Source of the DNA: a virus
Reading direction: 5' to 3' (one strand)
Length of the DNA stretch: 22,533 bases
IMG/VR virus record: IMGVR_UViG_3300032088_000099
Span: 1 to 22,533 of that record
Both the position numbers and the translations under genes were made by a program. A model generated the notes under the pieces. It was not told where the DNA came from and searched no databases. It saw only the letters and a program-made list of their open reading frames with translations. Shown here piece by piece: positions 1-6,607 of the stretch. Positions within the stretch are counted from its first letter, which is position 1. The number at the start of each line of letters is the position of its first letter.

Positions 1-2368
1 TAGTATAGAAGCTGTTCATAGCTGGGTTAGTCCTAAGAATAGTGCTTACACTATACTCAAAGACAGCGTTGGATATCTCCATCATAGAAGACATACCTGA
101 CATTCCCATATTAACAGCAAAGCTAAAGGCTCTCATACCTACGTTAAATTCTTTAACACCCTTGCTGAATGGTTCTTTGTGAGCTAGTCTACCAGTTATC
201 CCATCATACATAAAATCCAAAGCATCTAACTCAGACCTATATTCTCCCTCAGAAATGTTCTGCATTTTAGCTTGACTTTTAATAGTCTCTCTAAAAGCGT
301 CCCAGCTAGAACCTGCTTGGTTGGTATTGATACCATTTCTAGCTAGTCCAATAGCTCCTGAAAGTTGGAAGATATAAGAGTTATGTAGCTGTTCGATATC
401 AGTCTCTAACAACTCTTCAAACCGTATCTCTTCTATTTCCCCATCAGCACGTGTTACGCTAATAGAGGCACTTTCGTCAAGTAGTAAACGAGGGCGGCTA
501 CGCTTGTGTTCAGCCTTTGTAGGTCTACCGTTTGCAAAGAGTTCTACAACATCATCTATCTGATCGTCTGATAATTCATCCTTAAACTCTCGCTTCATAA
601 GATCACCCAAATCTTCTAGGGTCATCTCATTTAGACCTTGTGCGCCGCCTGATTTTCCAAATGTGCGATCAACGATACCTTTAGTATAACCAGCAGCTAT
701 ACGTCTAATCATTTCGTTAGCTTCTGCTTCTATATCCTTAGTGGACTTTCGGCTAGGTTTCTTCTTAGCAGCCTTCTCAGCCTTTTTCATAATACTCTTA
801 ATAACATTATCAAGTATGTCAGGCTGACCCTTACGTAGAGCCTCTTCTACTAATTGAGCAATCTTCTCGTCAGCATCAGCACCAAGACGTTTTCTTAGAT
901 TAACAATGTTTTCATCATTAAAGATACGAGCTAGGTAATTCTTATGCTTATCTAGTATTGATGGTGTGAAACCAGCAACATCATACTTAATACCCATCTC
1001 AGCAAGTTCACGTTCTTGTTTCTGTACCAGTTCAGCTACAGCCTTAACTTCAGGGTCTGCCTCTGTAATAATACCACGTGCGTACTTACTAACTAAATCA
1101 TTAAAGTCAGGGATAGATAGCCCTGTTCTTTTAATAAAAGCTTCCTGAGCAGGATAGAACACTGAACCAAAACTCTGCCTATACTGACCTTGGATACGCT
1201 CTGCAATTTCTGAAGCTGAGTCGTTGGCATGTAAGTTGCCACCTTTATAGCCTACAGTATTAGCACCTAAGGCTCTAGCACCCTGACGCATCCGTGAGAG
1301 CTTAGACATACCAGCCTTGTACCCAGAGGATACTAGCTTACGTACACCTAGTAGACCAAAACCAGCAATCTCAGGGATAGCTTCGGCAGTCGCTTCAGGC
1401 GTTGCAGCAAGAGCCACACGCTCAGATACTCCTGTATCACTAACCCTAGTAGCAGCAGTAGTAGCGTCAGCTACGTTAAACATGGTATCGTTAGCCATTG
1501 TTTCGTTAATTAAACGCTGTGCAGTAGCCTCTGCATTGTTAGCGTTATAGAAGGCTCGTTCAGCAGGAGTGAGTTGTCCACCCTCTGCTACCTTCTTAGC
1601 TAATCGTGCTACATTACCACGTTTAATGAACGTAGATATACCTGCGTTTAAAGTGCCGCCTAGTACTGAACCAGCACCCATAGCTATAAGTACATCATTA
1701 GCATCAACATCATACTTAAGACCAGCACGGATGCTTTCAAAAGCAGCTAACTCAATACCTGTAACTGCTGCACCCGCACTAAAAGCTTTAGCTGCACTAT
1801 AGGCTTTCTTAGCCCTCATAGCCGCACCAGCGGTTAGTGCAGTAGTAGCGGTTAGAGGGGCAGCAGGGCCACTTAGAGAGGCTATAGCAGCCGTAGAAGC
1901 TCCAATGGTAGCCCATTCTACTGGATCAAACATTGCAGCAAAGAAAGTAGCGGCTGTTCCACCCCAACCAGCCTCAGCTAGTTTCTGGCGGTTAGTTTGT
2001 GTCTCTAAGTAATCTTCCCTGAGCCTCATTGCACTATTAAGGTTGACGTTGGTGGCTTCATCTAACACTTCACTAATAGCACGTTCATCAGTTAGACCGT
2101 TAGTCAGTTCAAAAGTCATCTCATCAGTTAAAGTACCGACAGCTTCACCCTCTGGTGTTCTTAATCTGTCGGCACTTTTAAAGAGAATAGGTGCTATTTG
2201 TTCTTCCACGACTGCTGTAGGCAAGGAAGAAAAGAAGCCACCCTTTGTTGTTACTTCCTCTTGTGCCTTAAATATTGTACCTTCGCTAACCATAGGAGTT
2301 ACGTCAGGGGCTGTAATCCCTGACTCAAATCCTAGGCCAGTGAGGATAGTATTAGATTTCTCAGCCAT
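1..2368 (-). CDS. Internal virion (ejection) protein, gp16-like; partial, C-terminus beyond the left edge
   Basis: The reading frame begins at ATG 2368 (MAEKSNTILTGLGFESG) and I read no stop down to base 2, so at least 789 residues are present and the C-terminus is cut off. A good ribosome-binding site (AAGGAAACTCAC before the ATG) follows the stop of the 1203-residue gene by about 12 bases. Residues about 130-215 are rich in Ala, Gly and Ser with hydrophobic stretches (for example FDPVEWATIGASTAAIASL from about 147). Later parts are charged and helical, and the last visible part is Met/Ser-rich. Position (last of three large genes after the tail-tube genes), size and composition fit the T7 gp16 class of internal core proteins that are ejected to form the DNA channel across the envelope. 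T7 gp16 has an N-terminal lytic transglycosylase; I see none here. The assignment rests mainly on synteny and size, not on a recognised motif. Confidence 0.75.
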   Translation of the reverse strand, partial: MAEKSNTILTGLGFESGITAPDVTPMVSEGTIFKAQEEVTTKGGFFSSLPTAVVEEQIAPILFKSADRLRTPEGEAVGTLTDEMTFELTNGLTDERAISEVLDEATNVNLNSAMRLREDYLETQTNRQKLAEAGWGGTAATFFAAMFDPVEWATIGASTAAIASLSGPAAPLTATTALTAGAAMRAKKAYSAAKAFSAGAAVTGIELAAFESIRAGLKYDVDANDVLIAMGAGSVLGGTLNAGISTFIKRGNVARLAKKVAEGGQLTPAERAFYNANNAEATAQRLINETMANDTMFNVADATTAATRVSDTGVSERVALAATPEATAEAIPEIAGFGLLGVRKLVSSGYKAGMSKLSRMRQGARALGANTVGYKGGNLHANDSASEIAERIQGQYRQSFGSVFYPAQEAFIKRTGLSIPDFNDLVSKYARGIITEADPEVKAVAELVQKQERELAEMGIKYDVAGFTPSILDKHKNYLARIFNDENIVNLRKRLGADADEKIAQLVEEALRKGQPDILDNVIKSIMKKAEKAAKKKPSRKSTKDIEAEANEMIRRIAAGYTKGIVDRTFGKSGGAQGLNEMTLEDLGDLMKREFKDELSDDQIDDVVELFANGRPTKAEHKRSRPRLLLDESASISVTRADGEIEEIRFEELLETDIEQLHNSYIFQLSGAIGLARNGINTNQAGSSWDAFRETIKSQAKMQNISEGEYRSELDALDFMYDGITGRLAHKEPFSKGVKEFNVGMRAFSFAVNMGMSGMSSMMEISNAVFEYSVSTILRTNPAMNSFYT

Positions 2369-2380
2369 GTGAGTTTCCTT

Positions 2381-5300
2381 TTATCCAAATATGTCAAGCA
2401 TACTAGTCCATGCGGTTTCTAGTTTATCTACAGCAGTGCCAGCAACACCCCACTTCATTTCTCGTATGGATGGTAGGTTGTCTACATCTGCTGGTGTTAC
2501 ACCATCTAACCTACGAATACGTAAATCCTTATCGTGTCCGTAAGATTTAATGGCTACCTTATCACCAGTGTTTCCACCAATGAAATGTAGTTCACCATTC
2601 TCAGATTTCACAACGATGCCCACGTGTCCAAAGGCAGTTAGCTTCTCACCTTTTCCTTTAAAGTAAGCATCCTTCTCAGCCTTAGTATGAACTTTAACCA
2701 TGATGTCACCAGCTTTTACATCAGCTAGTTCGACAGGTTTACCTATCTTTAAGTAGTTCTTAGAACGAGTAGCTGCGTACTTATCGGTTGCTCCCATAAG
2801 TTTATTAGCGTCCACACCTGCGTCAGCAAGTATCTGTGCTAAGAAGACAGCACACCAAGCGTTACCTTTAGCAACTTCTTCAGGAGTACCCTTAAAAGCT
2901 TTACCACCTACAACATCATTAAAGAACTTCTCAATAGCTTCGGCACCAGCCTTAGTATCTTCGTCAATACCGTGGTATTTTAAGGCGGCAGTAACGAGGT
3001 CAGGTGCTGTAGCCATAGCTACTACATCTTCACCCTTAGGCTGTTCCCCTACTTTAGCAGGTGTTATTTCAGACGCTTCTGCGCTAGGAATAATAGACTC
3101 TGTTACAGTTTTTACTATCCCAGCCCCAGCTTCAGATACGGCTGTAGCAGTATCACCTGCACTACTAGCAAGTTCATTAGCTACTTTCATGGCTCTGTTC
3201 TTAGTCTGTGTAGCCCACTTGGTAGCTGTAATTTTACCATCTTCTGCCATATTGTAAAGCATGTTGAACTTAGCTTTAGCAAGAGCAGTTGCCTGTTCTA
3301 CAGAACCTTCAGCATACTGTGCAGCTTCCTTAATTGAACCCATAAACTTAGGCCACTCTTTGGTGACGTTAAATCTACCTAGCTGATAACCCATCTGGAT
3401 CATACCAGACTTTGCTGTGTCTGGTAGGTTCTGAAAACCTTCTACTACGTCAGTAAAGTAATTGTCAATCTTAGCTACTTTGAGTGCAACAACAGCAGCA
3501 GATTCCTCTGGCTGTACGTTGTTTACATCACTGATTAAAGCTTTTTCATCAGGCTCAAGGGATTCAATTTGAAGCCCATGACCTACGGAGTCTTTACCCA
3601 TGTCATCATAAGGAGTGTAAGAGAAACCCTCATCATCTATGATAGCAGTAGTAGCGTTAGCTGTAGATATGCCAACGGTATTATCAATAAGATTAGTTAC
3701 CACGTCTAAAGCATCATCAGCTAACGAACTAGTCTGTTGCTCTTCTACCGTAGGCTCATCCTCAACTACGTCAGGTGGCTCTACAGGTTCGGGCTTAAGG
3801 TACTCTGGACTCTGAGTAGATACATAAGTAGGTTTAGAACCATCCGCTGTAATACCTGTGTAGTAGTAATGTCCTGTAGGCTCACCATTAACAACAATAG
3901 GCTGGGCTGTTAGTGGTTTAAACGTATCAGGAAGGCTAGTAACCATAACAGAGTTACCTAAGTTATTTTTAGCCCAGCCAGCACTAACATTAATAGGCTT
4001 ATTAACAGGATCATCCTCTGGAGCTAGAGAGCCACCAGAAAATGCTTTCTTTTTAGCTAGGATAACCTTGTTCTTATTACTTGCTATAATTTTAGCAACA
4101 ATTTGTGGGTCATTAAGCAAATCATCCTTCTTAACAACCCCAAGAGGAATATGTGGAAAACCGTTTTCATCCATAATAGAAATTCTAACAGCGTTAGGTT
4201 TAAGACGATCATTAGAAAAACCAACAGTAGGGTTTTCGATCATCCCTAACTCACCATTCATAATAATCTTTATGTCTGGATCATCACTCATTACTTTAGA
4301 AAGGTCTGTTAATCTTTGTGCTACAGGCGCACTAACATTAGGGTCAGTGTTAATCTGCCGGAAGGACATCTTCAGACCATTAGCAGCCTGATAGATTACA
4401 CTATCTTTCTTAAAGGCTTCTGCTGCCATAGTAGCTGCGTTTTCTAAGGATAAGCCACCCTCTAATTGCATGAGCAGTCCTGTCATACGCGAAAGTTCTT
4501 CGATGTTAGCTCTAGAATTACCTGTGTCAGTATGGTCAGTGCCTAAGAAAGTACTAATACTATTAGCTAGTTTTTCTTTGTTAGCAGCACTTAAAGTTTC
4601 ACCAATACTTAAGTCAGCCGATTGAGCCGTAAACATAGCGTTAGCAATATTAACAGTACCGTCATCCTTACTACCTACAGTAGCAGTTCTCATAGCAAGT
4701 ATCTTAGCTATCTCAAAGCGTTCCAATTGATCTGCATCTACCACTGACGTAGGAATATCTATACCCATTGCCTGTGCTTTGAATATACTATTAAAGGCTA
4801 ACTCAGCAGTAGCTGCATCCGTAGGATTAGAAATAATATCACCGCTGTTTAAAGCATAAATACCATTCTGAATATTGTTCTTCATATTAGAAGGAAGAAG
4901 ATTATTCTTTCTAAAGAAGTCTTCAAATTGATCCTGATTTAAGCCACGGCTGGCTGCATAAGCTTCAAAACGTGCTATTGTCTCATCATCATCCATGACA
5001 AGTTTAGTACCGCCAGCACCAGTTAATGTTTCACCCCTAAAATAATCCTGTTGATTATTAGAACCACCAAAGACAAAGTTTTCAAAACCTTGATTTAACT
5101 GCTGAGTAAAAAGAATATTATCATTCTGTTTATTAAACTCTTTATCATAAGCCCTAAGGTCACTATCAATAGTCTTATACATCGCTTGGTAGCGGGGGAT
5201 ACCACGGAACTTACGCTCCTCTGCCCACTCATAGGCTGCGTTTCTACCACCTGTTCTTACATTAGGAGCAATTACCTTCTCCATAATATAGTCATTAACC

Positions 5301-5992
5301 ATAGTTTGATTGTAGCCATAGGCTTGTGAAGCTTGTCTTACAACCTCATCAATGTTCTTTTTCTGCTGTTCTAATTTTAAACCTGCGCCAAAGGCAAGGT
5401 TTGCAGGATCAAGTAGTTCACCATCTTCATCAGACTCCGGTACAAATCCGTAACCAGCATCTGAAGTAATCCCAAGAACTTCATTACCTACTTTACCCAT
5501 ATTGATAGTAAAGTTATGTTTAAACTTTGCAGGGTCATAGTCTCTGTCAAACCACGCAAGGTTTCCCATTTCAATGTTGCCCTTGACAGCCTGAAATAGT
5601 AAGTCATCACCTGAGTCTTGGGCTTGCTGGATAAACGGCTGCATAATCTCAGCACGTCTTGCAGCTACCTGTTCATCAGACATTTCTAGATAGTCAGGTT
5701 CGTTATTTATAAAGTCCTTTTGAGCAGCCCTTAAAGCACTAGACACGCCAAGTTTAGCATCCATAGTACGTGCAGAGGCAATACCCTGCTCTGCTTCTCG
5801 CTGAAGCTTAAGTTGTTTCTGCTTTTCAATCTGAGCCAAGTCTTTAGCTGCTGGTGCAATTGCACGAACAAATTCACCCAAACCACTTTTAGCCGCAGGT
5901 TGTTCAGCAGGGCGTACATATGTCTCCACTGGACGAGCCACAGCTTGTAGCCTTGCAGAAGGCCGCAACCGTTCTACTTGTTTTCTAGCCAT
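2381..5992 (-). CDS. Internal virion protein (gp15/gp16-like) with two C-terminal cell-wall hydrolase domains
   Basis: This 1203-residue protein has a strong RBS (AAGGAGATAGCTT) before ATG 5992. Residues 1-770 are mostly helical and charged with no motif I recognise, as in T7-like internal core proteins. Residues about 784-940 look like a T4-type lysozyme (GH24). They contain E788-G-F, then D797, then VGHG at 803-806. Later come MIQMG (864-868) and KWATQTKNRA (925-934), which resembles the RWYNQTPNRA helix of T4 lysozyme. The catalytic Thr of the E-8-D-5-T triad is not at its usual spacing. Residues about 1042-1165 look like a papain-fold NlpC/P60 or CHAP-type hydrolase: WC at 1046-1047, HVGIVV at 1123-1128 and GGN at 1139-1141 give a Cys-His-Asn set. 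Likely role: local peptidoglycan opening during DNA ejection. It lies between the gp14-like and gp16-like genes. Domain calls are from motif memory. Confidence 0.85.
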   Translation of the reverse strand: MARKQVERLRPSARLQAVARPVETYVRPAEQPAAKSGLGEFVRAIAPAAKDLAQIEKQKQLKLQREAEQGIASARTMDAKLGVSSALRAAQKDFINNEPDYLEMSDEQVAARRAEIMQPFIQQAQDSGDDLLFQAVKGNIEMGNLAWFDRDYDPAKFKHNFTINMGKVGNEVLGITSDAGYGFVPESDEDGELLDPANLAFGAGLKLEQQKKNIDEVVRQASQAYGYNQTMVNDYIMEKVIAPNVRTGGRNAAYEWAEERKFRGIPRYQAMYKTIDSDLRAYDKEFNKQNDNILFTQQLNQGFENFVFGGSNNQQDYFRGETLTGAGGTKLVMDDDETIARFEAYAASRGLNQDQFEDFFRKNNLLPSNMKNNIQNGIYALNSGDIISNPTDAATAELAFNSIFKAQAMGIDIPTSVVDADQLERFEIAKILAMRTATVGSKDDGTVNIANAMFTAQSADLSIGETLSAANKEKLANSISTFLGTDHTDTGNSRANIEELSRMTGLLMQLEGGLSLENAATMAAEAFKKDSVIYQAANGLKMSFRQINTDPNVSAPVAQRLTDLSKVMSDDPDIKIIMNGELGMIENPTVGFSNDRLKPNAVRISIMDENGFPHIPLGVVKKDDLLNDPQIVAKIIASNKNKVILAKKKAFSGGSLAPEDDPVNKPINVSAGWAKNNLGNSVMVTSLPDTFKPLTAQPIVVNGEPTGHYYYTGITADGSKPTYVSTQSPEYLKPEPVEPPDVVEDEPTVEEQQTSSLADDALDVVTNLIDNTVGISTANATTAIIDDEGFSYTPYDDMGKDSVGHGLQIESLEPDEKALISDVNNVQPEESAAVVALKVAKIDNYFTDVVEGFQNLPDTAKSGMIQMGYQLGRFNVTKEWPKFMGSIKEAAQYAEGSVEQATALAKAKFNMLYNMAEDGKITATKWATQTKNRAMKVANELASSAGDTATAVSEAGAGIVKTVTESIIPSAEASEITPAKVGEQPKGEDVVAMATAPDLVTAALKYHGIDEDTKAGAEAIEKFFNDVVGGKAFKGTPEEVAKGNAWCAVFLAQILADAGVDANKLMGATDKYAATRSKNYLKIGKPVELADVKAGDIMVKVHTKAEKDAYFKGKGEKLTAFGHVGIVVKSENGELHFIGGNTGDKVAIKSYGHDKDLRIRRLDGVTPADVDNLPSIREMKWGVAGTAVDKLETAWTSMLDIFG

Positions 5993-6004: not shown

Positions 6005-6607
6005 TTAATGACTAAGGCCATGTCCCTTATTTTGTGACGCACCGCTAAAATAATCATCATTCTTAGAATTGAATGTAGATTTATATTTATCAGATTGATT
6101 TACTTTAGCTGATTGATACGCAGACGTAGCATTAGCCGCAGTTCCCACAGCCGCAGCTAGGAAATTAGGCATGACACCCTGTTGTAGAGAGTTAGTTCTA
6201 TTTTGTGCTTCCGCAGATGCACCACGCTTTTCAAGCTCAATCTGTTTCTCTACATTCTCAAGGTTTCTATTGATAGTTGTAACACCACGTAGTTTCTGTG
6301 CTTCATAGTCCTGTAGTAGTAAGTCCATACTATTACCGCTAAGACCTGACTCACCCTGAGCAACCAGAGCAGCACCCTCGCCTTCTAGGGCTGCAATACC
6401 TAGTCTCATCTTTTCTTCAGAGGCAGCTTCTGCTTCTTGAATAGCTCTCTGGTTTAGGGTTTGTACTTTTAAATCTCTTGCTTCGTTAGCAGCCAGACGG
6501 TTAGCATCAAATCTAGATTGCTTCTGTTGTGCCTGAGCTACACCTTCTTCATATTGAGCAACACCCTGCGCCACCATTAATGTAGCCATAATAACTGGGT
6601 CACACAT
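6005..6607 (-). CDS. Internal virion protein, gp14-like
   Basis: A 200-residue protein. Residues 1-20 are hydrophobic (PVIMATLMVAQGVAQYEEG). Residues 20-135 form a long Ala/Gln/Glu/Arg-rich helical region, followed by a small Ala/Gly-rich segment (NFLAAAVGTAANATSAY, about 149-165) and a polar tail. This is the usual pattern of T7 gp14-type internal core proteins, which are ejected with the DNA and are thought to form the outer-membrane part of the channel. The start ATG 6607 lies inside the end of the gp13-like gene (8-base overlap) with AGGA six bases upstream, indicating translational coupling. The 1203-residue ejection protein starts 12 bases after its stop. Family assignment is by composition, length and synteny. 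Confidence 0.8.
   Translation of the reverse strand: MCDPVIMATLMVAQGVAQYEEGVAQAQQKQSRFDANRLAANEARDLKVQTLNQRAIQEAEAASEEKMRLGIAALEGEGAALVAQGESGLSGNSMDLLLQDYEAQKLRGVTTINRNLENVEKQIELEKRGASAEAQNRTNSLQQGVMPNFLAAAVGTAANATSAYQSAKVNQSDKYKSTFNSKNDDYFSGASQNKGHGLSH

Follow-up and report, generated by a model that had tools for sequence, protein, structure and literature searches.

A gp15-position protein of a marine T7-like phage carries a predicted GH24 muramidase and an exchangeable NlpC/P60-CHAP-like hydrolase domain

The stretch of DNA analysed here (the window) comes from a marine T7-like phage; it is a viral contig of 22.5 kb, the minus strand of which encodes a ribonucleotide reductase, the portal, scaffold, capsid, tube and nozzle proteins, a gp13-like protein, gp14, a protein of 1203 amino acids and a truncated gp16. 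The cultured matches of the nozzle protein all share ≤40% identity with it, the best of them coming from Rhizobium phage RHEph01, Pseudomonas phage LUZ100 and other T7-like phages, which include marine roseophages and pelagiphages, and the T7-like architecture suggests that the phage infects a Gram-negative host. The 1203-residue ORF has a Shine-Dalgarno (SD)-like sequence upstream of its ATG and occupies the gp15 slot, as it sits between the gp14 and gp16 homologues; the order gp13-gp14-gp15-gp16 is retained in relatives. The features of this region are as follows:

2..2368, minus strand: gp16-like ejection protein (phrog_342), cut by the window end and lacking the N-terminal SLT domain of T7 gp16
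2381..5992, minus strand: gp15-position ejection protein, an ORF of 1203 aa (130 kDa) between the gp14 and gp16 homologues
2459..3013, minus strand: NlpC/P60-CHAP-like peptidase/amidase domain, residues 994–1178 (family profiles, model, conserved residues)
2852-2854 (C1047), 2624-2626 (H1123) and 2570-2572 (N1141), minus strand: predicted catalytic residues of the CHAP-like domain (alignment of relatives)
3074..3091, minus strand: I968-P969-S-A971-E-A973 (I-P-x-A-x-A) in the linker that leads to the C-terminal module (alignment of 40 rows)
3179..3646, minus strand: T4-lysozyme-like (GH24) domain, residues ~783–938 (fold, profile, conserved residues)
3629-3631 (E788), 3602-3604 (D797) and 3587-3589 (S802), minus strand: predicted catalytic residues of the lysozyme-like domain (alignment of relatives)
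3653..3661, minus strand: A778-N-A780 (Ala-x-Ala) directly upstream of the lysozyme-like domain (sequence; similar in relatives)
3665..5992, minus strand: N-terminal part, residues 1–776, without a recognised domain, presumed tunnel/core
6005..6607, minus strand: gp14-like ejection protein (Pfam T7_gp14, E 2e-27)

The N-terminal part of the 1203-residue protein has no convincing match in Pfam or PHROG and no significant hhalign match to T7 gp15; as a sequence relation to the latter is undetected, the name gp15 is used here for the gene position only. A single-sequence PDB search with the whole protein returned nothing useful. The C-terminal third had been claimed in a first-pass annotation to hold two hydrolase domains, a claim on which fold, profile and residue conservation agree, and structure prediction, by which that annotation had proposed to judge it, gave a hydrolase fold for each domain.

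The first of these is T4-lysozyme-like, and its span of ~783–938 lies close to the boundaries proposed earlier (about 784–940). From the window sequence alone, a match to Pesticin (lysozyme-like) is obtained with E 0.04, under the curated cut-off; the domain likewise falls below the Pfam PF00959 cut-off, which the relative L111 exceeds (26.2 versus 22.3 bits), and PF00959 matches 8 of 40 relatives. The AlphaFold model of the domain aligns with T4 lysozyme in Foldseek at a TM score of 0.70 (on target) and E 3e-4, and T4 lysozyme is the sole plausible PDB match of a 16-member lysozyme profile (E 4e-4), the profile alignment reaching the C-terminal W-x-x-Q-T-x-x-R-A motif of T4 lysozyme. Two profiles built from few relatives (A1 and A2) missed the PDB families, whereas the diverse lysozyme profile found T4 lysozyme. 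Relatives of the domain were retrieved at 49 loci, yielding 46 distinct domains for comparison: Glu788 is present in all 46, as is the aspartate at Asp797, two residues after an invariant tyrosine, while the third position (S802) is occupied by Ser/Thr in 43 and by Ala in 3. Serine at the position of T4 Thr26 is also seen in alignments of SP6 gp36 and phiKMV gp36, and the active-site string of T4 lysozyme itself (Y-x-D-T-E-G-x-x-T) is present in L042, L053 and L098. Over its first ~45 residues the domain occurs in two versions, D-D-M-G-K-x-S and I-D-T-E-G-H-x-T, the second being found in L042 (L042:4974-5516), L053 and L098. As L042 is nearly identical to the window over the remainder of the domain, this switch of version suggests an exchange inside the lysozyme domain.

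The second domain is placed in the NlpC/P60-CHAP superfamily. Its position had earlier been given as about 1042–1165; the domain and its Cys-His-Asn residues were right, but the start lies near residue 994, with N-terminal helices included. The CHAP match from the window sequence alone has E 2e-4. Of the 40 aligned members, all are hit by TIGR02594 (E 1.5e-7 for the window, 7e-15 at best) and 36 by Pfam CHAP. The domain is assigned to the superfamily and not filed in TIGR02594, because the bit scores of the window are under the curated cut-offs (31.8 versus 70.55 for TIGR02594; 25.7 versus 26 for CHAP). The model of residues 994–1178, made from 64 sequences, has a mean pLDDT of 92.8, and the nearest solved structures are peptidoglycan hydrolases, including the Clostridioides autolysin Acd24020, MepS and CwlO. 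As in other members of the superfamily, the fold is papain-like, and the Cys and His are conserved together with a third residue that is polar: among the relatives compared, Cys1047 is present in 69/69 distinct sequences, and His1123 and Asn1141 in 68/69. Asparagine as the third residue presumably agrees with the G-G-N motif of TIGR02594 proteins. A diverse CHAP profile searched against the PDB gave sub-threshold matches only, headed by a cell-wall hydrolase amid chance matches. In a joint model of both domains the overall pLDDT is 64, falling below 50 in the linker. Judged by fold and conserved catalytic residues, both domains are intact-looking enzymes with predicted activity.

The linker contains the motif I-P-x-A-x-A, the four fixed positions of which have weighted frequencies of 91, 94, 98 and 100% in 40 sequences, embedded in a variable stretch predicted to be disordered. 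Of 20 non-redundant linkers, 18 contain it (1/18 elsewhere in the linker), compared with an expectation of 0.4 from shuffling. As the linkers are homologous, this count shows conservation of the motif and not independent origins. Similar Ala-x-Ala stretches lie in the linkers of proteins with the alternative C-terminal modules described below (alt1 and alt2), except L056. In most sequences a looser Ala-x-Ala also stands ahead of the lysozyme, where SP6 gp36 reads SPAFAS. With Pro at -5 and Ala at -3 and -1, the spacing of I-P-x-A-x-A matches the c-region of signal peptidase I sites, but the stretch before it is not strongly hydrophobic. It is a conjecture, and an improbable one, that host signal peptidase, or another protease, would cut the ejected protein at the Ala-x-Ala motifs in the periplasm and so free both hydrolases from the tunnel; the literature searched gave no example of a host processing enzyme used in this way during phage entry. 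The linker motif is more simply read as a flexible hinge.

The lysozyme-CHAP pair occurs in the same order in about 60 of the IMG/VR contigs fetched, its alleles being as little as about 43% identical across the region that spans both domains. Other combinations among these contigs are lysozyme with alt1 (n=8), lysozyme with alt2 (n=4) and CHAP without this lysozyme (n=29), counts that are biased to relatives of the queries, the last class including contigs cut short. One lysozyme-CHAP gp15 (L156, CACGIE010000014.1) comes from a single-cell assembly with the label Candidatus Poseidoniales, an archaeon that should have no murein, and probably belongs to a co-sorted virus particle; the scan of contigs for a host link returned just this virus contig and no usable link.

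The C-terminal module is swapped recently between close relatives, either as one of two CHAP subtypes or as an unrelated module, on a background where gp16 is about 98% identical. The identity of L003 to the window is 91–97% over the first 780 residues, 91% for the lysozyme and 98.7% for gp16; even so, the two have unrelated C-terminal modules. L002, about as close to the window as L003, has a CHAP domain that is just 48% identical. L028 and L042, conversely, have N-terminal parts of 24–36% identity and lysozymes of 86–87%. These identities differ by part, and the N-terminal part, the lysozyme and the C-terminal module are thus seen to move separately; among proteins with near-invariant catalytic residues the N-terminal parts drop to 21–32% identity. 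Two contigs of the same genome type (L117 and L126; nozzle 74%, gp16 59%) carry a different domain before CHAP, with a weak Phage_lysozyme2 match, and the phage protein L122 contains an SLT followed by an NlpC/P60-like domain. In L011 (L011:4514-8125), the middle of gp15 (about 216–780) is replaced (~30% identity), the ends being 86–94% identical to the window. The modules that take the place of CHAP are the following:

alt1 (L003:10836-11456; also L009, L054 and L148-L150): replaces CHAP in close relatives
alt2 (L050, L056 and L155): replaces CHAP in close relatives

Neither module has a match in Pfam, and alt1 is without any match, while alt2 matches the end of phrog_7348, filed as endolysin by PHROG. 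A hhalign comparison hints at a distant relation between them (E 8e-5, with a probability of just 62%). L155 is a phage protein of 473 aa, the N-terminal part of which matches endolysin families. A small membrane-protein-like ORF (~60–70 aa) directly follows gp15 in the alt1 contigs L003 (11475-11678), L004-L007, L009, L010 and L150 and in the alt2 contig L050, and is absent from the contigs with CHAP that were checked (window, L002, L011, L012 and L013).

As close relatives carry alt1 or alt2, without a recognised enzyme family, CHAP activity is not strictly required there, and non-catalytic NlpC/P60 proteins such as RipD are among the fold matches; the lysozyme could thus be active and the CHAP-like domain merely wall-binding or structural. 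This reading is unlikely, since the near-invariance of Cys1047, His1123 and Asn1141 argues for catalysis, and alt2 itself resembles the tail of an endolysin-named family and is joined in L155 to an endolysin-family part.

In T7 gp16, the SLT domain is N-terminal (residues 15–127). The gp16 of the window matches phrog_342 from profile position 283 only. In its hhalign alignment with T7 gp16, the first aligned residue is 359 in T7 and 199 in the window; the difference of about 160 residues agrees with a missing SLT domain. None was detected by Pfam in the full-length gp16 homologues scanned, including L013:907-4314. PF01464 (SLT) has no match in any of the seven relatives of 38–45 kb (0/7). Each of the seven (7/7) has a separate gene for a short GH24 endolysin that scores above the Pfam cut-off, and such an endolysin is presumed from them for the incomplete genome of the window. 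The gp15-position proteins of the cultured relatives LUZ100, RHEph01 and CRP-114 have about 540–670 aa, and the gp16 of RHEph01 is annotated as lytic transglycosylase-like. From these results together, wall cutting appears to have moved to gp15, away from gp16, and to be present there twice. This is in line with the first-pass annotation, which had placed a doubled lytic function at the C-terminus of the gp15-position protein: the gp16 family is without SLT, and gp15 has two lytic domains.

A role in entry is favoured over one in lysis because the long relatives have the separate endolysin and no SLT. Under the alternative, both C-terminal domains would form a lysis endolysin, freed by internal translation or cleavage and acting late in infection; the CHAP homologue of roseophage CRP-804 is a separate protein of 211 aa, phrog_21357 is named endolysin by PHROG, and the I-P-x-A-x-A motif could be a cleavage site. 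We consider this improbable, as no SD-like sequence was seen before the in-frame ATG/GTG codons examined after residue 700 and about 60 contigs keep the domains fused to the ejection protein, in addition to the separate endolysin. An assembly chimera or one-off fusion, conceivable for a window that is a single metagenomic contig, is hardly credible given the same domain order in those contigs, with their divergent alleles, and in the single-cell assembly.

The 1203-residue protein is best read as a gp15-position ejection protein with a GH24 muramidase and an NlpC/P60-CHAP hydrolase that open the wall at entry and replace the SLT of T7 (probability about 0.8). From the gene position and the PhiM1 core described below, we infer that it is present in virions. 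The N-terminal ~780 residues would be part of the ejected trans-envelope tunnel, while the GH24 muramidase would cut the glycan strand and, after the flexible linker, the NlpC/P60-CHAP cysteine peptidase or amidase would cut the peptide part. Once ejected to the periplasm, both hydrolases would stand in for the transglycosylase at the start of T7 gp16 and breach the wall locally so that the tunnel and the DNA can pass.

The T7 ejection machine has one local wall cutter. In a widespread marine group, a single tunnel protein appears to combine a cutter of glycan with one of peptide, the latter being exchanged like a cassette among otherwise nearly identical phages. These swaps make it testable whether host wall chemistry drives module exchange, and natural pairs with the same phage backbone and a different module are suited to entry experiments.

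The hydrolase domain of T7 gp16 is known to swap to the gp15 homologue in K1E and K1-5 (PMC8954989), lytic activity has been reported for phiKMV gp36, and SP6 gp36 is listed as a lysozyme (PMC5380687). The SP6 protein resembles that of the window in its gp15 position and in its GH24 domain at nearly the same place (770–905 of 978 aa), but its lysozyme is followed by a tail of ~75 aa without a peptidase, and in SP6 gp36 and the gp15 homologues of K1E and K1-5 one lytic domain was found. phiKMV gp36, also in the gp15 position, contains a C-terminal GH24-like domain at 749–878 (hhalign E 3.7e-5). In the cryo-EM structure of the PhiM1 core, a lysozyme-like domain lies in the gp15-equivalent protein (PMC11440229). 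In this protein, the PhiM1 OEP, the GH24-like domain is C-terminal; the OEP is without a peptidase, and the second enzymatic domain of PhiM1, endolysin/exotransglycosidase-like, is on a gp16-type protein. A lysozyme on a gp15-position protein is therefore already known from SP6, K1E/K1-5, phiKMV and PhiM1.

The SLT transglycosylase of T7 gp16 shares with the two domains of the window a presumed role in local wall cutting during ejection, but it is a single N-terminal domain of another family on another protein. Virion lysins with two lytic domains were, as of 2017, known from Gram-positive phages only (PMC5380687, section 12), to which the window would be an apparent exception if the phage, like other T7-like phages, infects Gram-negative bacteria. 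Among them, phi11 gp49, phiMR11 gp61, phiIPLA88 HydH5 and SP-beta CwlP likewise combine two lytic specificities on one virion protein (PMC5380687), but are not ejection-core proteins of a T7-like phage. Homologous CHAP-like domains (~28–34% identity) are contained in CRP-9 gp54, CRP-804 gp40 and Caulobacter phage tape measure proteins; unlike that of the window, these modules of alphaproteobacterial phages are stand-alone or in other large proteins, with no GH24 partner detected. No ejection protein that combines GH24 with a peptidase came up in the open-access literature searched, where absence is weak evidence. What is unusual here is the added peptidase on a gp15-position protein, together with its exchange.
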